Positions 44 through 9,350 of a stretch of DNA of 9,350 bases are shown piece after piece. The stretch is from an uncultured Bacillota bacterium (GTDB lineage: Bacteria > Bacillota_I > Bacilli_A > Erysipelotrichales > Erysipelotrichaceae). A model generated the notes under the pieces. That model saw only the letters and a program-made list of their open reading frames with translations. It did not search any database and was not told where the DNA came from. The position numbers and the translations under genes were made by a program. The stretch lies in NCBI GenBank assembly GCA_900321955.1, contig ONXX01000040.1, forward strand, positions 1-9,350, in the 5' to 3' direction. Position 1 is the first letter of the stretch. Each line of letters begins with the position of its first letter.

Positions 44-55
44 TATAATAGTTTT
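44..55 (+). promoter_or_regulatory. -10 element abutting the LD-carboxypeptidase start
   Basis: A perfect TATAAT at 44-49 is followed by six bases (AGTTTT) and then the ATG at 56. By standard sigma-70 geometry +1 falls on the A of the ATG. No good -35 is visible 16-18 bp upstream and no Shine-Dalgarno exists. The site predicts a leaderless transcript. Confidence 0.65.
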
Positions 56-1036
56 ATGAAATATCCTGATTTTATAAAGAAAGGCAGCCGGATCGGCATC
101 TGTGCGCCAAGCGCCGGTGTCGGTAAAAAGCTGGAAGAATTTGAACTTTCCAATGAAGTATTGGCTTCAAAGGGCTATCGCATAAAAGAGACGGCTTCGG
201 TACGGGTCAACAATGAACGTTCCGCCAGTGGCAAGAAAAGGGCGGCTGAGCTGGATGAACTCGTCCAGGACAAGGATGTCGATATGATCCTTTGTGCAGC
301 CGGCGGTGATTTCATGCTGGAAATGATGCCGTATGTGAACTTTGATCATATCCGTGAAAATCCGAAATGGATCTGTGGCATGTCCGATCCGACCAATCTT
401 CTTTTCCCGGTCACCACGATGCTGGATATCGCAACGCTCTATGGCACAAACGGGGCAGGTTTCACCTATGACCGTTCAAGACCGCAGTCGACCTTTTTCC
501 GCTATATCGAAGGGGACATTGTCAAACAGAATTCCTATAACCGCTACATGACCTTCTTGGATATGATCAATGAAAATCATGTCTACTATCCGGTGAAGTG
601 GCAAAGCAAGAAAGAGGAATTACAGATTGAAGGACGTCTGATCGGCGGTTGTCTGGAATGCATTGAAAAGCTGATCGGTACCAGATTCGATCATGTCAAC
701 GAGTTCATCGATCGCTATAAGGGTGATGGCATCGTGTGGTTCCTTGATGTCTTCAATATGTCTTCCTACAATTTCTATCTGACCTTGTTGCAGATGGAAA
801 ATGCAGGCTGGTTCCGTCATTGCAAGGGCATACTGATCGGCCGGATCTGCTTCCCGAATGTGGAGGATCCAAAGCTTGACTATATCAAGGCAGCCGATAA
901 GGTCTTGAAGAAGATCCCACACATTTGCGAGATGGACATTGGTCACACCACACCTTATATGACACTGATCAACGGTGCTTTGATCGATGTGCGCTACAAG
1001 CAGGGAAAGGGCTCTATTGCCTTCAAATTAAAATAG
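56..1036 (+). CDS. S66-family LD-carboxypeptidase (LdcA/MccF-like)
   Basis: A serine peptidase of family S66. LdcA members cut the L,D bond in muropeptide tetrapeptides during cell-wall recycling; MccF members cleave microcin-type acyl conjugates. The 326 residues match the family length. The N-terminus (KKGSRIGICAPSAGV, residues 8-22) is the usual opening strand. The GMSDPTNLLF segment holds the probable nucleophile Ser110, GGCLE gives Glu201, and DIGHTTP gives His297, so the Ser-Glu-His triad looks complete. There is no signal peptide or membrane segment, so it is probably cytoplasmic. The start fits the family N-terminus and lies 6 nt after a TATAAT with no Shine-Dalgarno, so the mRNA is probably leaderless. 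It stands alone and ends in a terminator. I infer LdcA-like wall recycling, but MccF-like self-immunity or peptide hydrolysis cannot be excluded from sequence alone. Confidence 0.88.
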   Translation: MKYPDFIKKGSRIGICAPSAGVGKKLEEFELSNEVLASKGYRIKETASVRVNNERSASGKKRAAELDELVQDKDVDMILCAAGGDFMLEMMPYVNFDHIRENPKWICGMSDPTNLLFPVTTMLDIATLYGTNGAGFTYDRSRPQSTFFRYIEGDIVKQNSYNRYMTFLDMINENHVYYPVKWQSKKEELQIEGRLIGGCLECIEKLIGTRFDHVNEFIDRYKGDGIVWFLDVFNMSSYNFYLTLLQMENAGWFRHCKGILIGRICFPNVEDPKLDYIKAADKVLKKIPHICEMDIGHTTPYMTLINGALIDVRYKQGKGSIAFKLK

Positions 1037-1060
1037 GACTTGCGTCCTATTTTTCTTTTT
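1031..1060 (+). terminator. Rho-independent terminator containing the LD-carboxypeptidase stop codon
   Basis: Arms AAATAGGAC (1031-1039) and GTCCTATTT (1044-1052) pair perfectly around a TTGC loop and run into TTCTTTTT. The TAG stop (1034-1036) lies inside the left arm. The unit separates two convergent genes. On the minus strand the hairpin is followed by only a weak T-run, so it may also partly terminate the aldolase transcript. Confidence 0.8.
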
Positions 1061-2090
1061 ACTGTTTGTTTACGTAGCTTACGAGATCGTTGTAGAAGTC
1101 CTGTATATCGCTCTTTTTCGTTGCCCAGGAACAGACGAAGCGCACGATCGTGTGGTCCTTGTCGTAAGGTCCCCATTCGGTTACTTCATAGTTGGTCTTG
1201 ATGCGTTCGTAGAGGCGGTTTTCCAGGATCGGGAAGATCTGGTTGGTTGGCGAATCGATATACATCGGAATCGAGAACTGGGTTAAGATGTATTTCAGGG
1301 CCTGGGCCATGATGTTGGCGTTGCGGGCGTTGTCGAAGTAGTCTTTTTCTTCGAATAAGGCTAAGAACTGTACACCCAGCAGTCTTCCTTTTGCCAGCAT
1401 GGAACAGTGCTGCTTGATCAGGTAACGGAAATCCGGTTTGAGTTCATCGTTTTTGATGACCATCGCTTCGCCCATCAGGGCACCGTTTTTCGTGCCGCCG
1501 ATGTAGAAGATGTCGGTGAGGTCACAGATGTCTTTCAAAGTCAGATCGTTGCCCGTGGCAACTAAGGCGTTGCCAAGTCTGGCACCGTCAAGATATAAAT
1601 ATAAACCGTATTCCTTGCAAACATTGGAAATGTCGGTCAGTTCCTTTTTGCTGTAGATCGTGCCGAATTCGGTCGCGTTGGAAACAAAGACCATCTTAGG
1701 CTTGACCTTGTGTTCATCGGTGTGTTCCGACATGACGGTGCGGATCTCTTCGGCAGTGATCTTGCCGTCTTTTCCTTTGACCGCAATGATCTTGTGGCCG
1801 GTTGCTTCCACAGCACCGGTCTCATGAACGTTGATGTGACCGGATTCCACGGAGATGACCGCTTCGTGGGAGCGCAGCATGGAGATTGCCACGACGTTGC
1901 ATGGCGTACCGCCGGTAATGAAGTGAACATCGACATCTTCGTGTTCGATCACGCGTTTGATGAGATCTGCAGCAGCCAGACAGTATTCATCCATGCCGTA
2001 CCCGGCGGATTGAACGTTGTTAGTCTGGATCAGGGCACGCAGTACTTTCGGACAGGCACCCTCGGAATAATCGTTCGCAAAAGAATACAT
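1059..2090 (-). CDS. Threonine aldolase / beta-eliminating lyase family PLP enzyme
   Basis: A fold-type I PLP enzyme of the threonine aldolase group, which typically cleaves L-threonine or L-allo-threonine to glycine and acetaldehyde in the cytoplasm. Seen in the 343-residue protein: opening MYSFANDYSEGACP, the GGTPCN phosphate-binding turn (60-65), SGHINVHE with probable ring-stacking His85, LDGARL with Asp168 and Arg171, and GGTKNG with the Schiff-base Lys201. Length and motif order are normal and no key residue is missing. It follows the CRP-type regulator by 21 bp on the same strand. It has a good Shine-Dalgarno (GAAGAGG, 8 nt before the ATG) and possibly its own -10. The exact substrate and stereospecificity cannot be read from the sequence; several relatives are annotated only as beta-eliminating lyases. 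The regulator pairing suggests, but does not prove, metabolic control of the gene. Confidence 0.88.
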   Translation of the reverse strand: MYSFANDYSEGACPKVLRALIQTNNVQSAGYGMDEYCLAAADLIKRVIEHEDVDVHFITGGTPCNVVAISMLRSHEAVISVESGHINVHETGAVEATGHKIIAVKGKDGKITAEEIRTVMSEHTDEHKVKPKMVFVSNATEFGTIYSKKELTDISNVCKEYGLYLYLDGARLGNALVATGNDLTLKDICDLTDIFYIGGTKNGALMGEAMVIKNDELKPDFRYLIKQHCSMLAKGRLLGVQFLALFEEKDYFDNARNANIMAQALKYILTQFSIPMYIDSPTNQIFPILENRLYERIKTNYEVTEWGPYDKDHTIVRFVCSWATKKSDIQDFYNDLVSYVNKQ

Positions 2091-2116
2091 GTTGTTAACC
2101 TCTCTTCCTAATTATA
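2091..2116 (-). promoter_or_regulatory. Possible internal -10 and Shine-Dalgarno for the aldolase gene
   Basis: On the minus strand TATAAT spans 2116-2111 and overlaps the TAA stop of the upstream regulator gene (2114-2112). Twenty bases separate it from the ATG and include AGGAAGAGG, a good ribosome binding site. The -35 is poor (AGACGG at the expected place), so this may be a secondary promoter inside the operon. In contrast to five other genes here, this start has a real Shine-Dalgarno. Confidence 0.45.
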
Positions 2117-2693
2117 ACAACCTCACAGTCTTTCCGTCTTTGATAACGACTTTATTTTTGATCAGCTTACTCAAAAGGCGGGATAAGGTTTCTCTTCTGA
2201 TAAATAAGTCATCGGCCAGATCGGAAACAGAGCTGTAAGTAATCTTGTTTCCGTTTTCGCGCAGGTAGGTGATGAAGCGCTCTTGCGCCGAATCGATCGA
2301 CAAAAGGCGTATGCGGCTGTGCAGCCGCTTGCCGGAATCGGCCTGGATCTGCAGATAGGCGAGAAGAAAATCGGTGTTTTCTTCCAGAAAACCGATCAGA
2401 ACATCTTTTTTAATAAGGATGATGCCGCTGTCGCTTTCGGCAATCACATCACCTTTGTAAAAAGGCTGTGACGAAAACAGAAGATTGTTTCCGAACATGT
2501 CATCTTCCTTTAATCGGTTATAGATGATGGGGTTTCCGTTTTCCGGGTAGGAAGTAATGAGCAGCTTGCCGTATTTGACGATGCCGATCTCTCCGCAGCG
2601 GTCATTCTCATAAAACAAAGTTTCTCCTTTGCGGAGTTCCTTATAGATCAGTCTTTCTTTTTCTTTCTCATTTAAGAGGGCAATAATGTTCAT
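2112..2693 (-). CDS. CRP/FNR-family transcriptional regulator
   Basis: A 193-residue regulator, shorter than E. coli CRP (about 210). Residues about 10-115 form the cyclic-nucleotide-binding-like beta-roll (KGETLFYENDRCGEIGIVKYGKL region, then DDMFG near 64-68). A dimer helix follows at about 108-145, and a winged helix-turn-helix at about 150-193 with recognition helix RRETLSRLL (166-174). There is one cysteine (Cys33), so an FNR-type iron-sulfur cluster is excluded. The cAMP-binding signature is not obvious, so the effector is unknown. It is divergent from a transporter operon, with a CRP-like box between them, and is followed by the aldolase gene in the same direction. The box sits inside its own leader, which predicts autorepression. 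The ATG lacks a strong Shine-Dalgarno (CGGAAA just upstream). Family assignment is firm; ligand and regulon are unknown. Confidence 0.88.
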   Translation of the reverse strand: MNIIALLNEKEKERLIYKELRKGETLFYENDRCGEIGIVKYGKLLITSYPENGNPIIYNRLKEDDMFGNNLLFSSQPFYKGDVIAESDSGIILIKKDVLIGFLEENTDFLLAYLQIQADSGKRLHSRIRLLSIDSAQERFITYLRENGNKITYSSVSDLADDLFIRRETLSRLLSKLIKNKVVIKDGKTVRLL

Positions 2694-2697
2694 TTTC

Positions 2698-2713
2698 CGT
2701 GATCCAGGTCACA
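2698..2713. promoter_or_regulatory. CRP-like operator between regulator and transporter
   Basis: The minus-strand sequence TGTGACCTGGATCACG matches the E. coli CRP consensus form TGTGA-N6-TCACA with one end base changed. Its centre is 2705.5. Relative to the predicted transporter start near 2747 it is at -41.5, the class II activator position. Relative to the predicted regulator start near 2722 it is at about +17, a repressing position. The regulator's recognition helix carries Arg167-Glu168-Arg172 in the register of CRP Arg180-Glu181-Arg185, which fits GTGA half sites. Confidence 0.7.
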
Positions 2714-2728
2714 TATTTTTACATTTCT

Positions 2729-2740
2729 ATTATATATAAT
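2729..2740. promoter_or_regulatory. Palindromic bidirectional -10 element
   Basis: ATTATATATAAT is a perfect 12-bp palindrome. It reads TATAAT at 2735-2740 on the plus strand, serving the transporter, and TATAAT at 2734-2729 on the minus strand, serving the regulator. The two hexamers are adjacent, so one polymerase probably excludes the other. No convincing -35 hexamer is found on either side, consistent with activator dependence toward the transporter. Confidence 0.65.
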
Positions 2741-2763
2741 ATTCTTCTGTGAGGTATTGGAAA

Positions 2764-3732
2764 ATGAAAAAAGTATTACTTATCTTAGCTGTCCTTCTCA
2801 TGCTTTGCGGCTGTGGTGCCCAGAAGCAGGAAGAGACGGTTCCCGAAACAGTTGTTGATCCTTCGACGCTGACAATTGTCACACCGAAGGGCGCTCCGGT
2901 CTTAGCTTTCTATGACCAGATCGAAAACGCAAACTACACACGTGTTACTGCTGATGCCATCTCCGCTTTATGGACCGGCGATCAGTCTCCGGATGTTCTG
3001 GTCGTTGACCTGACCAGTGGTGTCAAGGCCATTGAAAACGGCGCAGAATACAAGCTTGCGGCCATCATCACCTTCGGTAACTTCTATCTGGCTTCAACCG
3101 GCCACGATGAAAACGAAACAATGGATGCTGACGACAAGATCGTCTTATTCGGCAATGAAAACATGCTTCCAAGCAGATTATGGCACTATCTGTATGGCAC
3201 AGACTATGATGCAAGTTTAGTTTATGAAGCAGACGCACAGCAGGCTGCTGCGGCACTTGCTTCCGGCAAGGCTTCTGATGGCAGCGATGTTGATTACGTC
3301 TTCCTGGCACAGCCGGCTTTATTCGGTTCTTTGAAGAAGAATGAAAACGCCAAGATCTATGCTGATATTCAGGAAGAATACAAGAACAAGTCCGGTCAGG
3401 ATATGATCCAGGCTGCTGTCTTCATCAAGAACAGCGTCGATGCAGCTACCGGCAATGCTTTCTTAGAGAAACTGCAGGCTTCGATCGAAGCAGCCATCGC
3501 TGATCCGACCGTAGTCGAATCCGGTCTGTCCGTCTTCAAGGATGATGAAGCGACTGCACAGTATGGCTTCAATCCGACGGTTGTCGTCAATGTATTCAAA
3601 CAGAAGAACGCTTTAGGAGTCAACGCCATGGGCTTAGGCTTTAAGAAGGCGATCGACATCAAGAGCGATATCGATGCATTCCTTTCGATCTTCTCAATCA
3701 ATCAAACCAGTGAAGAGATTTATTTCAAGTAA
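2764..3732 (+). CDS. ABC transporter substrate-binding lipoprotein (NitT/TauT-like)
   Basis: An extracytoplasmic solute receptor of the type paired with nitrate/sulfonate/taurine or thiamine-precursor permeases. I place the start at ATG 2764 (322 residues), 8 nt after GAGGT, rather than at GTG 2749. This gives a clean signal MKKVLLILAVLLMLCGC with a lipobox (LCGC) and lipidation at Cys17. A Glu/Thr-rich linker (20-35) follows, then the periplasmic-binding-protein fold starting TLTIVTPKGAPVLAFY (35-50) and ending near MGLGFKKAIDIK. The end overlaps the permease gene, so the two are co-translated. The promoter carries a CRP-like box at -41.5, suggesting activation by the divergent regulator. 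The ligand cannot be determined; SsuA, TauA, NrtA and ThiY/NMT1-like proteins all share this fold. No ATPase gene accompanies it. Confidence 0.82.
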   Translation: MKKVLLILAVLLMLCGCGAQKQEETVPETVVDPSTLTIVTPKGAPVLAFYDQIENANYTRVTADAISALWTGDQSPDVLVVDLTSGVKAIENGAEYKLAAIITFGNFYLASTGHDENETMDADDKIVLFGNENMLPSRLWHYLYGTDYDASLVYEADAQQAAAALASGKASDGSDVDYVFLAQPALFGSLKKNENAKIYADIQEEYKNKSGQDMIQAAVFIKNSVDAATGNAFLEKLQASIEAAIADPTVVESGLSVFKDDEATAQYGFNPTVVVNVFKQKNALGVNAMGLGFKKAIDIKSDIDAFLSIFSINQTSEEIYFK

Positions 3733-4471
3733 AAAAACCATCTTTATTATCGGAATTGCATTACTTGCCACGCTGTGGCAAGTTTTGTCATTTTATATCG
3801 GTGAAGATACGATGGTCTTCCCGGGACCAGTCTCAACACTTCGCTATGCCTTTTATCTTTTAGGCAAGGAATATACCTACCGTTGCATCGTTTCGACGAT
3901 GTGCAGGATGCTGATGGGCTTTGGCTTTTCTCTTCTTGCCGGTCTGCTTCTTGGCGTCATTGCCGGGAATTTTGAAGTGTTTGGTCAGCTGTTACAGCCT
4001 TCGATCATCATGCTCAGAGCGATCCCGACAGCATCGTTAGTCTATCTGTTTATCGTTCTGGCCGGTTTTAAAAACGCACCGATCTATCTGGTCTTTCTGA
4101 TCAGTTTTCCGATCATTTATGAGGGCGTGAAGACCGGTGTGGCCAATGTATCGCCGGCAATCATCAATGCCACCAGGCTGGACGGCGCTTCCTTTGTCAA
4201 GGAAAATCTGAAGATCCGGCTTCCTTTGGCCTTTCCGTATATTGCCGCTTCGATGGCTTCCGCCTTTTCTCTGTGCTTCAAGATCGAGATCATGGCGGAA
4301 GTGATCACCGGTTCTTCCGTGGCGGGATTAGGTTCAGCCATACTTGGCGTGCGTTCCTCTGATCCGACCAATATGATACCGGTCTTTGGCTATTCGGCGA
4401 TTGCCGTCGCTTTGATGCTGGTGATCGATCAGCTTGCTTCTTTGATCCGGGATAAAATCAGAGTGAATTAG
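3674..4471 (+). CDS. ABC transporter permease (SsuC/TauC-like)
   Basis: The inner-membrane channel subunit of a BPD_transp_1 ABC importer, about 265 residues, near the usual 250-270. A short polar N-terminus is followed by a first helix (about 21-41), the family FPGPVSTL motif (49-56), further helices at about 77-97, 105-131, 135-148 and 190-210, and a last one at about 236-256. The cytoplasmic EAA-type loop reads NATRLDGAS with IRLP 16-19 residues on (165-184), the docking site for an ATPase. It overlaps the binding-protein gene by 59 bp from ATG 3674. A GTG at 3710 (MKRFISSKK) would cut the overlap to 23 bp and is a good alternative; neither has a strong Shine-Dalgarno. Translational coupling is likely. 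No nucleotide-binding subunit is encoded next to it, so it must borrow one encoded elsewhere. Substrate is unknown. Confidence 0.85.
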   Translation: MHSFRSSQSIKPVKRFISSKKTIFIIGIALLATLWQVLSFYIGEDTMVFPGPVSTLRYAFYLLGKEYTYRCIVSTMCRMLMGFGFSLLAGLLLGVIAGNFEVFGQLLQPSIIMLRAIPTASLVYLFIVLAGFKNAPIYLVFLISFPIIYEGVKTGVANVSPAIINATRLDGASFVKENLKIRLPLAFPYIAASMASAFSLCFKIEIMAEVITGSSVAGLGSAILGVRSSDPTNMIPVFGYSAIAVALMLVIDQLASLIRDKIRVN

Positions 4472-4473
4472 TT

Positions 4474-4484
4474 TATAATAGTTA
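4474..4484 (+). promoter_or_regulatory. -10 element abutting the deacetylase start
   Basis: TATAAT (4474-4479) begins two bases after the permease stop and ends 5 nt before the first ATG (4485). A second ATG follows at 4488. +1 would fall at the first ATG or just before the second, so the message has essentially no leader and no Shine-Dalgarno. No good -35 is seen. TTATAATAGTT is shared with the site before the first gene of the window. Confidence 0.6.
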
Positions 4485-5780
4485 ATGATGAAAAGAAATA
4501 AGCGAGCGAACTTAAGATCGCTGGTCATCATTGCGGTGCTTTCGCTGCTGGTGATCGCCGGCTTCTTTGCCCTGACGACGAATTTTGCGTTTGTCGGCAA
4601 GAAGTCGATCCATGAGGACGCTAAAAAGTATATGACGCGGCATTGTCTGGCTTTTTACCCCGATTCCAAACAGGGGTTTTCTTTCGCTAAGGACTTATGC
4701 AAAGGGGAGAAGAACGACACGATCTATGATTACACGCTTGTCCCGTACGGCGATTATTATCTGGTCAATTACGGCATGGACCGAAAGTATTTTGCCGATG
4801 CCGATTTTGAACCGGTTGTCATCGATCAGATGAGCGAGGACGGAAAGAAGATCATTGTTGATTATCTTCGCTATACCTATAAAAAGGAAAAACCGGACCA
4901 GTATTACAACGCGGATTTTCTGTCCAAACTGCAGCTGGAAAATATCGATTTTTCCAATGTGACCTATTCAATCAGTGAAGAGAACGTTCTGGTGGATCTG
5001 CCGCAGTATCAGTTGCAGATCGAGGTTCCTTTGAAGTATATGCAGAAAGAGATCGGCATGAATTTCGGTTTTCCGGATGAGATTTACCGCAAGCCGGTCT
5101 ACATCGATCCCGATCCTGCCCATCCGATCGTCTGTCTGACCTTTGATGATGGTCCGCAGCTCAATTTTGATCCGGGCGAGTCCAGCTCTGAAGCAATCGT
5201 CGATCTGCTTTACAAGTATGATGCGTCCGGTACTTTCTACGTCATCGGCAACATGATGGAAAACCGGGAAATCTGGGCGGATTATCAGTTCTATGCGCTG
5301 ATGAAAAGATCGATCAATCAGGGAAACGAATACGGTTCCCACACCCAGACCCACGAACAGGCTTTGACGGATCTAAGCGGCAGCGAAACGATACGCAAGC
5401 AGATCGAGGGACCATCTGAGTATCTTAAGGATTTTATGGGCTATCAGATGGCAACATTTCGTCCGGTGGAAGGCTCTTTCAATGATGAAGTGCTGAAATC
5501 GACGACGATGCCGGCCATCCTGTGGGATGTTGATTCGGAAGACTGGCTGACCCGGGATCCGGAGCAGATCGTTGCACAGGTCTTGAAATATGAATATGAT
5601 TCCGGTGATATTGTCCTGTTCCATGATATCTATGACGAGACGGTGGAAGCACTTGAAAAGATCCTGCCGGAGCTGATCAACAGAGGCTGTCAGCTTTTAT
5701 CGGTAAGTGATATGCTTCGCTTCTACAATATCGAGCCGACTTCAATCGATTATTTTTATTCGCCTAAGTATTACGAGTAA
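4485..5780 (+). CDS. Membrane-anchored polysaccharide deacetylase (PgdA-like, NodB domain)
   Basis: A 431-residue carbohydrate esterase family 4 enzyme. Such enzymes remove N-acetyl groups from peptidoglycan GlcNAc (lysozyme resistance) or from surface polysaccharide. A single membrane anchor (about 11-31) places the rest outside. Residues about 40-200 form an unassigned extracellular region. The NodB domain (about 213-415) shows TFDDGP (219-224; base Asp221, metal Asp222), metal ligands His286 and His290 in HTQTH, FRPVEG (325-330) for motif 3, DVDSEDW (348-354) for motif 4, and LFHD (378-381) with catalytic His380. Motif 3 is unusual: the family norm is RxPY/FG. It follows the permease by 13 bp but has its own -10. 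Its 3' end overlaps the convergent regulator by 17 bp, and its terminator lies inside that gene. Peptidoglycan as substrate is inference. Confidence 0.87.
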   Translation: MMKRNKRANLRSLVIIAVLSLLVIAGFFALTTNFAFVGKKSIHEDAKKYMTRHCLAFYPDSKQGFSFAKDLCKGEKNDTIYDYTLVPYGDYYLVNYGMDRKYFADADFEPVVIDQMSEDGKKIIVDYLRYTYKKEKPDQYYNADFLSKLQLENIDFSNVTYSISEENVLVDLPQYQLQIEVPLKYMQKEIGMNFGFPDEIYRKPVYIDPDPAHPIVCLTFDDGPQLNFDPGESSSEAIVDLLYKYDASGTFYVIGNMMENREIWADYQFYALMKRSINQGNEYGSHTQTHEQALTDLSGSETIRKQIEGPSEYLKDFMGYQMATFRPVEGSFNDEVLKSTTMPAILWDVDSEDWLTRDPEQIVAQVLKYEYDSGDIVLFHDIYDETVEALEKILPELINRGCQLLSVSDMLRFYNIEPTSIDYFYSPKYYE

Positions 5781-6669
5781 TAATCCTGTTTAAGAATTCG
5801 ATATATCTTTCAGCGACTTTCGGGTCGCTGATTTTTATTTGGTCATAAAAAGAGGTCAGCCTGGAGAAGAAGGCATCGGAGATGCTGACTTTGGCAGAAA
5901 AACCGTTCTTAGTAAAGACGATGCCGGGGAATTCATCTTCCAGACGGGCACGCAGGTAGGGAGAATCTTCGATGATTTCAAAGGTCAGGATGCGGCTTTC
6001 TGAAGAATGGAAGGCCGAAGAGCTTTCCTGAATGTTGGCGATGACGGCGGAAACCGGAATAAAAACCTCATCCTTTTGATCCAATAGAGTCATGGAGACG
6101 ATATTGTCAAAGCGGGCATGATAGATCTTCTCGCTTTGCGGATAATGATAATAAAGATAGTAGAAATCATTTTCCCGATATAAGAACAAAGGCGCGATCT
6201 CTTCTTCCTTGTTTTTGCCCTGACGGCTGATCGAAAGAAGTTTTCTCTTGCGTATGGCTTCCAAGGCATCTTCCAGCCGGTTGATAAAATGAAGGTCCTT
6301 ATGTTTATTGCGGTATTCCAGTTTCTTGAGATCTTTTTCTTCATAGATCGAGATAAAGGAATAGAGTTTGTCTTTTAGTTTTTTTAAAAAGCGGTCATCC
6401 AGATTCTTTAATGAATTCAAAGAATCGATGATGATCTTGATCTCCGAAACGGAAAAGGGCGCTTCCGAAAGGTAATAGCCGTTTTCGTATTCCACATCAT
6501 AGCCGAAGATCTCCATGGAACGAAAGTCGTCGTAAAGAGTCTTCCGGTTGACGGAGGTGATACCTTCTTTTTCCAAAAGGGCACAGATCTCGCCGATCGA
6601 AAGCTTATGGTCCATATCGGAGTATTCCTTCATGATGGAAACAAGGGAAAACAAACGCTGTTTATTCAT
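5764..6669 (-). CDS. WYL-domain transcriptional regulator with HTH
   Basis: A DNA-binding regulator of the WYL class (301 residues). The N-terminal helix-turn-helix (about 1-67) includes LSIGEICALLEKEGI and the wing-type sequence NRKTLYDDFRSMEIFGYDVEY (41-61). The WYL domain (about 130-200) contains FYYLYYH (169-175) in place of the eponymous Trp-Tyr-Leu, and YHARFDNI (183-190) with the conserved Arg. A WCX-like C-terminal region (about 225-297) follows. An upstream ATG at 6717 is open in frame, but 6669 gives the family-typical MNKQRLFSLVSIM start and lies 6 nt after a perfect TATAAT, so I prefer it. WYL domains are thought to sense ligands such as nucleic acids; the target here is unknown. 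It is divergent from the membrane-protein gene, which it may regulate. Confidence 0.82.
   Translation of the reverse strand: MNKQRLFSLVSIMKEYSDMDHKLSIGEICALLEKEGITSVNRKTLYDDFRSMEIFGYDVEYENGYYLSEAPFSVSEIKIIIDSLNSLKNLDDRFLKKLKDKLYSFISIYEEKDLKKLEYRNKHKDLHFINRLEDALEAIRKRKLLSISRQGKNKEEEIAPLFLYRENDFYYLYYHYPQSEKIYHARFDNIVSMTLLDQKDEVFIPVSAVIANIQESSSAFHSSESRILTFEIIEDSPYLRARLEDEFPGIVFTKNGFSAKVSISDAFFSRLTSFYDQIKISDPKVAERYIEFLNRIITRNT
5810..5840 (+). terminator. Deacetylase terminator embedded in the convergent WYL gene
   Basis: TCAGCGACT (5810-5818) pairs with GGTCGCTGA (5823-5831), with one T-G wobble, around a TTCG tetraloop. It is followed by TTTTTATTT. On the minus strand the same bases encode ISDPKVAE near the C-terminus of the WYL regulator. 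The minus side has no T-run, so the signal is one-way. Confidence 0.8.
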
Positions 6670-6704
6670 AATTCCATTATATATGTGTCCAAAAAAACGG
6701 ACAA
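6670..6704 (-). promoter_or_regulatory. Promoter of the WYL gene with overlapping inverted repeat
   Basis: On the minus strand TTGTCC (6704-6699), 17 bp, TATAAT (6681-6676), GGAATT, then ATG at 6669. This is the most canonical promoter in the window, and +1 falls on the A of the ATG. An inverted repeat, TGTCC-N8-GGACA (6686-6703), covers the -35 and most of the spacer and could be an operator, possibly for the regulator itself. Confidence 0.65.
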
Positions 6705-6735
6705 TGTTTTCCTTCAAAAAGAATAGTATGAAATC

Positions 6736-6741
6736 AGGAGG
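6736..6741 (+). promoter_or_regulatory. Strong Shine-Dalgarno of the membrane-protein gene
   Basis: AGGAGG lies 8 nt before ATG 6750, the best ribosome binding site in the window. It fixes the start and contrasts with the leaderless neighbours. A weak -10 (TAGTAT, 6724-6729) is the only nearby promoter candidate. Confidence 0.75.
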
Positions 6742-6749
6742 AAAGAAAG

Positions 6750-7286
6750 ATGAAGAAAGTTCTGATTGAAAATCTCTGGCTGATGGCTATCGGGTGGTGT
6801 CTGTATCTCAATGATCACATCCTGGCCAGTGCGGCGATCATGTGCTTTGCGGCACTTTACAGCCTTTACGTCATTGGTGAGGTAGACGTATTGCGCTGTG
6901 CTGTGACATTTATCGGCATCTATATCCTGACCTTGTGTCTGTATCTTGCCGGTAATATTCCATACTTTTTCCCAAGTCTTCATACATTCGGCGCAATGAT
7001 TGCCTTCGATGCGGCGATTCTTCAGGAACTCATGTATAAGATCAGACGAAAAGAAATGCTGACGATATTATCATTTATGCTGATGGCGTATCTGCTCATC
7101 ACTCTCTTAGTCATCTTCGTTGACGAAAGTGACTACGCATTATTCGGCAAATCTTCACTCTTCTTAATGAATGCCTTCATCTTTCTGCCTTTCCTCATAC
7201 CTTCCGTCCTGGTCTATGTCCATCGTACGGAACAGGCAATTGTCAGGAAACAGCAGAAAGCGACAGGAAAGATTGCCGATATCTGA
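6750..7286 (+). CDS. Hypothetical polytopic membrane protein
   Basis: I do not recognise this 178-residue protein. It is strongly hydrophobic, with about six predicted membrane helices (roughly 4-20, 23-43, 48-68, 76-95, 103-124 and 134-156). Short charged loops separate them, and a basic, soluble C-terminal tail (158-178, rich in Arg/Lys/Gln) follows that by the positive-inside rule should be cytoplasmic. The YKIRRKE loop (96-102) would also be inside. There is no signal peptide, lipobox or clear catalytic motif. A strong AGGAGG site supports translation. It is transcribed alone, divergent from the WYL regulator 80 bp away, and ends in its own terminator. Divergence hints that the regulator controls it, but no function should be assigned; a small transporter-like or energy-coupling membrane subunit is possible and unsupported. 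Confidence 0.75.
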   Translation: MKKVLIENLWLMAIGWCLYLNDHILASAAIMCFAALYSLYVIGEVDVLRCAVTFIGIYILTLCLYLAGNIPYFFPSLHTFGAMIAFDAAILQELMYKIRRKEMLTILSFMLMAYLLITLLVIFVDESDYALFGKSSLFLMNAFIFLPFLIPSVLVYVHRTEQAIVRKQQKATGKIADI

Positions 7287-7314
7287 TCAGCAATGTACTG
7301 TTTGTTTCATAGAT

Positions 7315-7341
7315 GACTGTCCTTTGAAAGGACAGTCTTTT
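7315..7341 (+). terminator. Terminator of the membrane-protein gene
   Basis: GACTGTCCTTT (7315-7325) and AAAGGACAGTC (7327-7337) are perfect complements, folding as an 8-bp GC-rich stem with a TTTGAAA loop, followed by TTTT. It lies 28 bp after the stop. The T-run is short, but there is no downstream plus-strand gene until 8481. Confidence 0.72.
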
Positions 7342-7344
7342 CAT

Positions 7345-7379
7345 AAAAAAAGATTGAAGCTCTTAGAAGGCTTCAATCT
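7345..7379 (-). terminator. Terminator overlapping the ispG 3' end
   Basis: On the minus strand AGATTGAAGC (7379-7370) pairs with GCTTCAATCT (7360-7351), followed by seven Ts (7351-7345). The left arm encodes the last ispG codons and the TAG stop (7365-7363) lies in the 9-nt loop, so coding and termination signals are merged. Confidence 0.82.
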
Positions 7380-8397
7380 CTTCTTTCAATGTCTTGATGA
7401 TTTCATCCTGGGGAATAGCTCTGATGATCTGTCCTTTCTTAAACAGGATGGCCTGGTCTTTGCCGCCGGCTACACCGATATCGGCACGGGAGGCTTCCTG
7501 CGGTCCGTTGACCGGGCAGCCCATGATGGCGACACTGACATCCTTGTGGACGTTTTCCAGATAGGCTTCCATCTCCTTGACGATCGGCAGCATGTCATAC
7601 TGTATTCTGCCGCAGGTCGGACAGGAGATGAGGTTTGGCACATCCCGTTTCAGATTGCAGGCTCTAAGCAGCATCTTGGCAACTTTGATCTCTTCAACCG
7701 GATCATCGGAGATGGAAATGCGGATCGTATCGCCGATGCCGTTTAAAAGCAGATTGCCAAGTGCCAGGGAGGACTTGATTGTGCTGTTGAGAAGACCGCC
7801 GGCTTCCGTGACACCCAAATGGAGCGGATAGGGGAAGGTCTTTGCGGCCAGTCCATAGGCCTTAATGCATTCTAGCGGATCGGAAGATTTAAAGGAAAGG
7901 CAGACATCATGGAAGTCAAGAGCTTCCAGAATGCGCAGATGATCTTTGGCGGATTCGATCATCGCTTCTTCCGAGTGCTGATATTTACGGTTAAGACTGC
8001 CGGCATTGATGCCGATACGGATCGGGATATGCCGTTCTTTGCAGGCTCTTACGATCTCTTTGATCTTGTCTTCGTTTTCGATATTGCCCGGATTGAGACG
8101 GATCTTATCGGTGCCGTTGGCGATGGCTTCCAATGCGAAATCGGGATTGAAATGAATGTCGCAGACCAAAGGGATGGAAATTCTTTCCTTGATCTGTTTC
8201 ACCGCTTTGGCGTCTTCCATATCGAGTATGGCGACTCTGATGATTTCGCAGCCGGCTTCTTCCAGTCTTTTGATCTGACTGACTGTCGCTTCGACATCTT
8301 TTGTTTTGGTGTTTGTCATCGACTGAATGATTACTTTATTCTGACCGCCGATCTGAACACCGCCGACCTGGATCGGCCTGGTTTCTGTTCTTTTCAT
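7363..8397 (-). CDS. ispG: 4-hydroxy-3-methylbut-2-enyl diphosphate synthase (IspG/GcpE)
   Basis: The iron-sulfur enzyme of the MEP isoprenoid pathway. It reduces and ring-opens methylerythritol cyclodiphosphate to HMBPP, the penultimate step before IPP/DMAPP. The protein has 344 residues. The N-terminal TIM barrel (about 5-245) contains VIIQSMTNTKTKDVEATVSQ (22-41), ADIH-type VCDIHFN (78-84), IRLNPGNI (99-106) and PLHLGVTEAG (191-200). The C-terminal domain provides the [4Fe-4S] ligands Cys259, Cys262 and Cys294, plus Glu301 in GPQEASRADIG. All key residues are present and the protein aligns closely with B. subtilis IspG from its start. I place the start at ATG 8397 (MKRTETRPIQVGG); the longer frame up to 8526 runs into the divergent promoter and dnaE. 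The ATG follows TATAAT by 6 nt, predicting a leaderless message. It shares an 83-bp divergent region with dnaE. Confidence 0.96.
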   Translation of the reverse strand: MKRTETRPIQVGGVQIGGQNKVIIQSMTNTKTKDVEATVSQIKRLEEAGCEIIRVAILDMEDAKAVKQIKERISIPLVCDIHFNPDFALEAIANGTDKIRLNPGNIENEDKIKEIVRACKERHIPIRIGINAGSLNRKYQHSEEAMIESAKDHLRILEALDFHDVCLSFKSSDPLECIKAYGLAAKTFPYPLHLGVTEAGGLLNSTIKSSLALGNLLLNGIGDTIRISISDDPVEEIKVAKMLLRACNLKRDVPNLISCPTCGRIQYDMLPIVKEMEAYLENVHKDVSVAIMGCPVNGPQEASRADIGVAGGKDQAILFKKGQIIRAIPQDEIIKTLKEEIEAF

Positions 8398-8409
8398 ACG
8401 TTCATTATA
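8398..8409 (-). promoter_or_regulatory. -10 element abutting the ispG start
   Basis: On the minus strand TATAAT is followed by GAACGT and the ATG at 8397. The 6-nt gap puts +1 on the A of the start codon. No Shine-Dalgarno and no clear -35 are visible. Confidence 0.65.
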
Positions 8410-8468
8410 AAACAAAAGGCCGTGAGCGATGCGCACAGTTTTGAAAGGCAATGCATTCACCGATAAAG

Positions 8469-8480
8469 TATAATGAAGAT
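8469..8480 (+). promoter_or_regulatory. -10 element abutting the dnaE start
   Basis: TATAAT (8469-8474), GAAGAT, then ATG 8481; +1 falls on the A of the ATG. TTGAAA at 8441-8446 resembles a -35 but is 22 bp away, too far for a canonical promoter. GAAGA between the -10 and ATG would lie upstream of +1 and so would not serve as a Shine-Dalgarno. Confidence 0.62.
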
Positions 8481-9350
8481 ATGAGCTGTCCCTTATATAT
8501 AAGAAGCGTTTATTCACTGCTGTCATCGATGTGTACGATCGAATCGATCGTTTCGTATGGCAAAAAATACGGATATACGCATCTTGGCCTGGTCGACCGC
8601 AATGTTCTGGCCGGTGCCATGGCTTTTAAGAAGGCCTGTGAAAAAGCCTCGATCAAACCGGTCTATGGACTGGAATTTGATCTGGAAGCAGAAGAAAGAA
8701 TCTATACGATGATCCTCTATGCCAAAGATGACGAAGGCTATAAAAACCTGATGGGTTTGTCCAGCCATATCTGTACGAAAGAGATAAAGGCCATTGACCT
8801 CAAGACCCTTCATATGTATAAGGAACACAATATCCTGTGCCTGCTTTCCGACAACATGCCTTTGACCCGGGTGATCGATAAAAAGGAAGATCCATCGGAA
8901 ACGCTGGAAAAGCAGAAAATGTGGTTTGGCGATTATATCGTCGGTCTTGTCGACCACGACATCGCTTCCAATGCCTATCGGGACAGGCAGATGAAGCCGA
9001 TCCTAAAAAACGCAGGCATCAAAACGATCGCTTTGAGCAGGACATTCTATCTTGACAGAGATGATCATGAAGAATTCAACGTCCTAAAATGTATCCGTGA
9101 CAAGCAGATCCTTAGTGCCTCTGACAGCATCGAAGAAGTCGGACGCCATTTCATGAGCATGGAGGAATACGACTCGCTTTATGAAAAAGAGGATCTGATC
9201 AATACCGATCTGCTGGCTTCCCGCACAGATGTGAAGATGGCTTATATGACTTCGCTCCCGGTTTATGAAAACAACAAGGGTGTGGCTTCCAAAGATTATC
9301 TGGTTTTGTTATGCAAAGCCGGCCTCAAGCGCCGTTTAAAAGACAGAGTT
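8481..9350 (+). CDS. dnaE: DNA polymerase III alpha subunit DnaE, N-terminal part (cut by window edge)
   Basis: The first 290 residues of a replicative C-family DNA polymerase; the frame is open at the right edge, so the catalytic palm and fingers lie outside. The start MSCPLYIRSVYSLLSS aligns with the B. subtilis-type DnaE opening (LQVHSGYSLLNS). GLVDRNVLAGAMAFKKACEKA (36-56) and IKPVYGLEF (58-66) continue the PHP domain. FYLDRDDHEEFNVLKCIRDK (189-208) and KDYLVLLCKAGLKRR (271-285) match the PHP-to-palm linker. PHP metal-site residues are lost: HxH is YxR (6-8), and the usual TDH is VDR (38-40). The domain is therefore probably structural and without exonuclease activity, as in many DnaE proteins. 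A Firmicutes cell usually also has PolC; which one this organism relies on cannot be told here. It is divergent from ispG, with a probably leaderless start. Confidence 0.88.
   Translation, partial: MSCPLYIRSVYSLLSSMCTIESIVSYGKKYGYTHLGLVDRNVLAGAMAFKKACEKASIKPVYGLEFDLEAEERIYTMILYAKDDEGYKNLMGLSSHICTKEIKAIDLKTLHMYKEHNILCLLSDNMPLTRVIDKKEDPSETLEKQKMWFGDYIVGLVDHDIASNAYRDRQMKPILKNAGIKTIALSRTFYLDRDDHEEFNVLKCIRDKQILSASDSIEEVGRHFMSMEEYDSLYEKEDLINTDLLASRTDVKMAYMTSLPVYENNKGVASKDYLVLLCKAGLKRRLKDRV

Follow-up and report, generated by a model that had tools for sequence, protein, structure and literature searches.

Leaderless mRNAs have been mapped in several Firmicutes by differential RNA sequencing (dRNA-seq), which placed their share at 8.6% in Streptococcus pyogenes and at about 9% in S. 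agalactiae and S. pneumoniae (PMC6431027). Computationally, Zheng et al. (2011) predicted leaderless genes in 56 of 209 Firmicutes genomes, at an average of 4.2%, with Lactobacillales and Mycoplasma included and with five Mycoplasma genomes averaging 18.3% (PMC3160421). Transcript mapping in Mycoplasma gallisepticum yielded no more than nine leaderless transcripts, the commonest leader length being near 15 nucleotides (nt) (PMC4245973), and a survey cited in PMC9581028 predicted leaderless transcription in 21.6% of bacterial species. A second described arrangement that concerns us is the bidirectional promoter with a shared symmetric -10 element, studied by Warman, Grainger and colleagues, in which the commonest start-site spacing is 18 base pairs (bp) and spacings of 10 and 23 bp are also common (PMC12825309, PMC10268837). 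Here we analyse a stretch of 9,350 nt from an uncultured bacterium of the Erysipelotrichaceae (contig ONXX01000040.1; the whole stretch is called the window), for which a preliminary description had reported an exact TATAAT directly before the start codons of five genes and had read these genes as leaderless. Its remark that leaderless genes are not typical of Firmicutes was too strong in view of the streptococcal and Mycoplasma figures above; its interpretation itself is supported on computational grounds. We conclude, with a probability of about 0.92, that the clade to which the window belongs uses leaderless mRNAs as a second standard expression route with the predicted transcription start (+1) on the start codon, and leaderless initiation is very likely both real and widespread in this clade.

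Ten open reading frames (ORFs) of the window were treated as genes, one more than had been counted before, and all five hexamers exist. In four cases the hexamer stands 6 nt before an ATG, a distance that we call gap 6, naming other distances likewise. These four predicted leaderless genes are an S66 LD-carboxypeptidase-like gene (positions 56-1036, plus strand; PF02016 and PF17676 above cut-off), with its -10 at 44-49 and a predicted +1 at 56; a WYL-like transcription regulator (5764-6669, minus strand; PF13280 below cut-off only, 15.7 against 21.8 bits), with its -10 at 6676-6681 and its ATG at 6669; ispG (7363-8397, minus strand; PF04551 (GcpE/IspG), NF001540 and TIGR00612 above cut-off), with its ATG at 8397 and its -10 at 8404-8409, slightly off the 8408-8402 originally assigned; and dnaE (8481-9350, plus strand), with its -10 at 8469-8474 and its ATG at 8481, a piece cut by the window end that matches TIGR00594 and the PHP domain and is too short for full-length cut-offs. 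The claim that such an arrangement is not due to chance holds, as the window contains four occurrences of TATAATN6ATG while 200 dinucleotide shuffles averaged 0.10 and never gave more than 2, so that none reached four. The fifth hexamer, at 4474-4479 on the plus strand, belongs to a polysaccharide deacetylase gene (PF01522) and lies at gap 5 from a first ATG at 4485 and at gap 8 from a second in-frame ATG at 4488. Because 13 of 21 orthologue rows start at gap 7, we prefer the second ATG, so that the gene would run from 4488 to 5780 with the start chosen from orthologue upstream regions; its leader is predicted at 0 to 2 nt, which makes it a near-leaderless gene and not the gap-5 case that it had been taken for. 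The leaderless genes are without a Shine-Dalgarno (SD) motif, as judged by eye from the window itself and from alignments of the upstream regions. The contrast case is a membrane protein gene (6750-7286, plus strand) with the SD motif aggagga, which is kept in relatives, and in the genomes sampled for leaderless genes SD motifs are most frequent at their usual distance, confirming that two start modes coexist.

Relatives were collected through ispG, the best 80 of 226 being kept (L001-L080). The nearest ispG among them, 89% identical, is that of L001, a metagenome-assembled genome (MAG) of Solobacterium sp.; the next ones come from Erysipelotrichaceae MAGs, and ruminants figure in the sample names of many of these. 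A tree built from 81 ispG rows joins the window to L001-L039 in a 40-member clade (support 100/99), and the clade DNA used for signature counts consisted of the window, L001-L039 and samples of the genomes G001 and G005 (in the latter sample 18 of the 20 stretches are runs along two contigs and 2 were chosen for holding a match). Importantly, the 6-nt peak that had been predicted from the window appears sharply in the close relatives: across L001-L028 (437 kb) TATAAT precedes ATG 67 times at gap 6, 19 times at gap 7 and about 8 times at each of the other gaps, and when an open frame of at least 80 codons is demanded the counts are 59 and 15 against a background of about 2. A further 14 gap-6 sites (10 of them open) were found in L029-L039, whereas L040-L080, outside the clade (690 kb), showed no peak, their 20 gap-6 sites lying under the mean of the other gaps. 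In whole genomes the gap-6 pattern outnumbers its reversed form by 70 to 6 (G001) and by 69 to 4 (G005). This reversed-pattern control was then dropped as it overstates the signal in AT-rich genomes, and other spacings served as the control instead. When the gap-6 count was divided by the mean count at gaps 9-18, a calculation made by hand, the resulting spacing ratio was 1.6-4.8 in the 19 clade genomes having both counts and 0.90-2.1 in 8 placed outside genomes that also had both, five of which gave 0.90-1.07. Gap 5, with just 4 sites in 2 families, was rejected as a leaderless class.

The base before the start codon carries an independent indication of where transcription would begin. All 98 gap-6 ATG sites of the clade DNA, from 36 families, have a pyrimidine at -1 (77 T, 21 C), and so have all 36 family representatives (p ~4e-10 against 55%); adding loci L121-L140, which were picked by a pattern that fixes -16 to -13 and leaves -1 free, brings the count to 134 of 135. 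At SD-led ATGs (n=385), the preceding base is a purine in 46% and a pyrimidine in 55%. Because a pyrimidine at -1 is the pyrimidine-purine signature of a start site, the 98 sites support the earlier placement of the predicted +1 on the A of the ATG. Further upstream, 22 of the 36 representatives have T at -17 and 24 have it at -15, an enrichment at both positions. Gram-positive sigma-A promoters carry TRTG upstream of TATAAT, and in a family-weighted test of 31 families, with palindromic and pattern-picked sites dropped, both T were enriched (58% at -17, 62% at -15) and R and G hardly so (A/G 60% at -16, G 32% at -14). Promoter-logo figures that included L121-L140 were set aside since the picking pattern fixes -16 to -13, and the count was repeated without them. 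TTGACA-like boxes with at least 4 of 6 matches were commonest at spacer 17 (16 of 99 sites), with 13 of 99 at spacer 21, and a 5/6 match at spacer 17 occurred at a single site of the 99, so that the -35 is weak. TATAAT promoters with leaders in the same DNA share the upstream T with the leaderless set; their sixth base is G in 5% and their seventh a purine in 68%. Of 35 sample sites, 6 have an intrinsic-terminator-like hairpin and T tract abutting the leaderless -10, compared with 19 among 356 other TATAATs (Fisher p ~0.02), which is a hint only; loci in which a hairpin runs into the promoter are L084, L089, L095, L103, L108 and L120.

One mechanism would accommodate these features. A strong sigma-A -10 element (TATAAT, T-rich just upstream, with a weak -35) placed 6 nt before the start codon would lead RNA polymerase to start on the A, or sometimes the G, of that codon at a pyrimidine-purine step, and the ribosome would then engage the start codon at the 5' terminus with no SD pairing, through the 70S or the initiation factor 2 (IF2)-dependent route of other bacteria. 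The alternative that survives best is that of ultra-short leaders, with transcription beginning a single nt or a few nt before the start codon. It draws on the gap-7 class, which has G at -1 in 16 of 25 ATG sites (L001-L028 and the G001 and G005 samples) and perhaps consists of genes with one-base leaders. That class, however, is the smaller one (29 sites in 15 families), gap 6 being the main class, and a purine at -1 occurs in none of the 98 gap-6 sites (1 of 135 with L121-L140), which leaves the A of the ATG as the natural +1; for the gap-6 genes we therefore regard ultra-short leaders as unlikely.

Conservation among orthologues points the same way as the leaderless reading, since flanks and the six spacer bases of the upstream regions drift while TATAAT-N6-start stays. 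The exact arrangement is present in 21 of 27 rows for dnaE, with GTG at the same place in L001-L003, and TATAAT stands exactly at gap 6 in 21 of 31 rows for the WYL-like gene and in 21 of 81 rows for ispG, 41 of the latter rows being loci outside the clade. For the S66 gene it is found in 5 of 13 rows (the window, L002, L003, L005 and L021), whereas L001, L006, L012, L013 and L020 have an SD motif in its place, so that, if these genes are orthologues, they would switch start mode between close relatives. In the WYL-like promoter the spacer also holds a palindrome, TGTCC-N8-GGACA (6686-6703, minus strand), which ends 4 nt before the -10 and recurs in 22 of 31 orthologue rows; it is probably an autoregulatory operator of that gene.

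The most compact form of the arrangement was found where two genes diverge from one -10. Of 294 genomes of the order, 23 carry the pattern CAT-N6-ATTATATAAT-N6-ATG, at 31 places altogether; its reversed form occurs at none, and a control with N9 spacers was found in none of the 23 pair-bearing genomes. In this back-to-back layout 22 bp lie between the start codons, the A-to-A distance is 23 bp and a single palindromic -10 is shared. Among genomes placed by the ispG tree the pattern is carried by 10 of 19 clade members and by none of 8 outsiders, the other 13 pair-bearing genomes being unplaced. We checked 21 distinct places of the 31 (22 matches, one of them a duplicate), and at each of them ORFs of at least 91 codons run both ways. 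Among the pairs, ung stands opposite folC; in three others one partner is named from a match below cut-off, namely a YceD-like protein (PF02620) beside a HIGH-type nucleotidyltransferase, a 1-phosphofructokinase-like gene beside murE, and a TtcA-like gene beside truB. Of seven ATTATATAAT-type palindromes in the clade DNA examined, two stand at gaps 6,6 and one at 7,6 (also counted as 4,6), and none of 12 such palindromes in L040-L080 has a start within 20 nt on either side. In a phylum sample the pair pattern matched 7 of 392 genomes, two of them known clade members and five non-clade or unplaced; at the loci of these five, long ORFs run both ways at L147 and L150 and not at L146, L148 and L149. 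L147 (28% GC) and L150 (22% GC), AT-rich loci from unplaced genomes of the phylum sample, carry the back-to-back layout. The median spacing ratio is 3.27 in the 23 pair-bearing genomes (range 1.32-5.29) and 1.01 in 38 others, of which three (G018, G019 and G051) reach 2, in a comparison that covers a partial and selected set of 61 of the 294 genomes, namely the first 40 rows and 21 chosen for having pairs. A motif-free histogram of divergent ATG distances was uninformative, spurious overlapping frames dominating it.

On balance we favour the view that the clade may have evolved a gene-packing unit in which two divergent leaderless housekeeping genes share one 10-bp palindromic -10 within a 22-bp intergenic region, the first codons of each gene forming the -35 region of the other. 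Polymerase would load one way at a time, making expression mutually exclusive per loading event, and the absence of -1 purines suggests that a leader of even one base is selected against in gap-6 genes. The pairs also bear on a further alternative, according to which the mRNAs have leaders from promoters further upstream and TATAAT is a secondary promoter or an A/T-rich tract that aids ribosome access. Read-through is conceivable for ispG, which sits close behind another gene in several clade loci, and the 5' ends here are predicted from sequence. In an access tract, however, neither the hexamer nor its 6-nt distance would have to be exact, and the base at -1 would not have to be a pyrimidine; with 22 bp between paired start codons a leader would fall inside the opposite gene, so that we consider upstream promoters a decidedly improbable explanation. 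Base composition, or the resampling of the same three families around ispG, is scarcely credible as the source of the peak: L001-L080 were indeed all fetched with ispG and three families supply 52 of the 98 gap-6 sites (GTG and TTG starts included), but these 98 sites still span 43 families, the G005 sample has TATAAT at gap 6 in 24 genes against about 3 per other gap, and the outside-clade loci are AT-richer yet lack the peak.

The extent of the leaderless mode was estimated by counting boxes with at least 5 of 6 matches and a pyrimidine at -1 at gap 6, observed against expected. In the G005 sample (353 genes) there were 36 such genes against 3.7 expected, corresponding to 9.1% of genes and 14.1% of first-in-unit-like genes. 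The estimate was 16.1% in L001-L028, a figure biased by the fact that these loci surround ispG, and 11.3% in L029-L039, while the same gap-6 box count gave no leaderless genes in L040-L080. With about 9% of genes in the G005 sample, the window looks richer in leaderless genes than average. Inspected by eye, the gap-6 families include what we tentatively take, from their N-termini, to be ffh, rimM, rnc, ligA, dnaX and holA.

What the sequences themselves show is a conserved spacing peak, a pyrimidine rule at -1, a common promoter signature, SD genes alongside and the back-to-back pairs. Several points weigh against the conclusion that leaderless expression is a standard route of the clade. The actual 5' ends and the translation step are what we infer from sequence, start codons were assigned by simple ORF rules, and the genome-scale evidence comes from relatives and not from the window's own genome. 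The 16S rRNA 3' end, from which the anti-SD would be read, had no match in 12 clade genomes or 20 order genomes, with matches only outside these. The share estimated in the G001 sample was as low as 3.0% of genes and 5.5% of first-in-unit-like genes. Promoters with leaders have a pyrimidine at the sixth base in only 59%, the leaderless set being stricter there. Finally, the limits of the clade are not clean: its members G009, G014, G015 and G016 reach spacing ratios of only 1.6-1.8, and the outside genomes G021, G023 and G025 have ratios of 1.6-2.1, and therefore the clade edge is graded.

Elsewhere in the window, a palindromic double -10, ATTATATATAAT (2729-2740, either strand), is common to a divergent Crp-like gene (minus strand) and a binding-protein gene (plus strand), both predicted to have leaders, and between this -10 and the start of crp stands a Crp/Fnr-type palindrome, TGTGA-N6-TCAC (2698-2713), shared by 11 of 13 orthologue rows. 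In the stretch 2091-2116, upstream of an aldolase-like gene, TATAAT is followed after 20 nt by the ATG, with an SD motif between the two, giving a predicted leader of only about 14 nt. The permease ORF in its listed form and the binding-protein gene have 59 nt in common (3674-3732), and the true start of the permease is probably further downstream.

With these results a clade of bacteria from gut and rumen would join the groups that have a leaderless mode, and because near relatives contrast with it, the gain or loss of this mode can be traced. If the S66 genes are orthologues, their difference in mode is a natural experiment on a gene switching its way of starting. The back-to-back pairs would, to our knowledge, be the most compact divergent control regions known, and with them competition between polymerases and translation without an SD could be tested directly. 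Annotation of these genomes should use a leaderless model when calling start codons.

As to precedents, a literature search for leaderless genes in Erysipelotrich taxa, with most subscription papers outside its reach, returned no description of this clade; the main text of PMC3160421 has no occurrence of 'Erysipelo' or 'Clostrid', and the Bulleidia genome paper PMC12786226 has none of 'leaderless' or 'promoter'. A search joining leaderless with bidirectional or divergent promoters, equally without most subscription papers, gave among the matches listed no title or abstract start that describes leaderless pairs sharing a -10, and 'leaderless' does not occur in the main texts of PMC12825309 and PMC10268837. 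The clade resembles the streptococci, which are also Firmicutes with a similar leaderless share and whose leaderless set is conserved between species (PMC6431027); unlike them, mapped as they are by dRNA-seq, it belongs to another group and is read from its DNA, and back-to-back pairs are described here for the clade. It shares with the Mycoplasma and Lactobacillales predictions a TA-like signal at a fixed distance before the start (PMC3160421). Leaderless genes are likewise found in Actinobacteria and Deinococcus-Thermus, there at high frequency, with mean shares of 19.2% and 39.4% (PMC3160421) that exceed the share in this clade. The -10 in those groups is a loose TAnnnT. The pairs resemble bidirectional promoters in that divergent start sites lie on one -10 at a known spacing of 23 bp (PMC12825309), which, with start sites predicted, falls within the 7-25 bp that PMC10268837 gives for divergent start sites on a shared or overlapping -10; unlike in the bidirectional promoters described, both predicted start sites are here start codons. 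In summary, the leaderless mode of this clade is ordinary in kind and, as far as searched, new for this group, and the back-to-back pairs are a notable variant of it.

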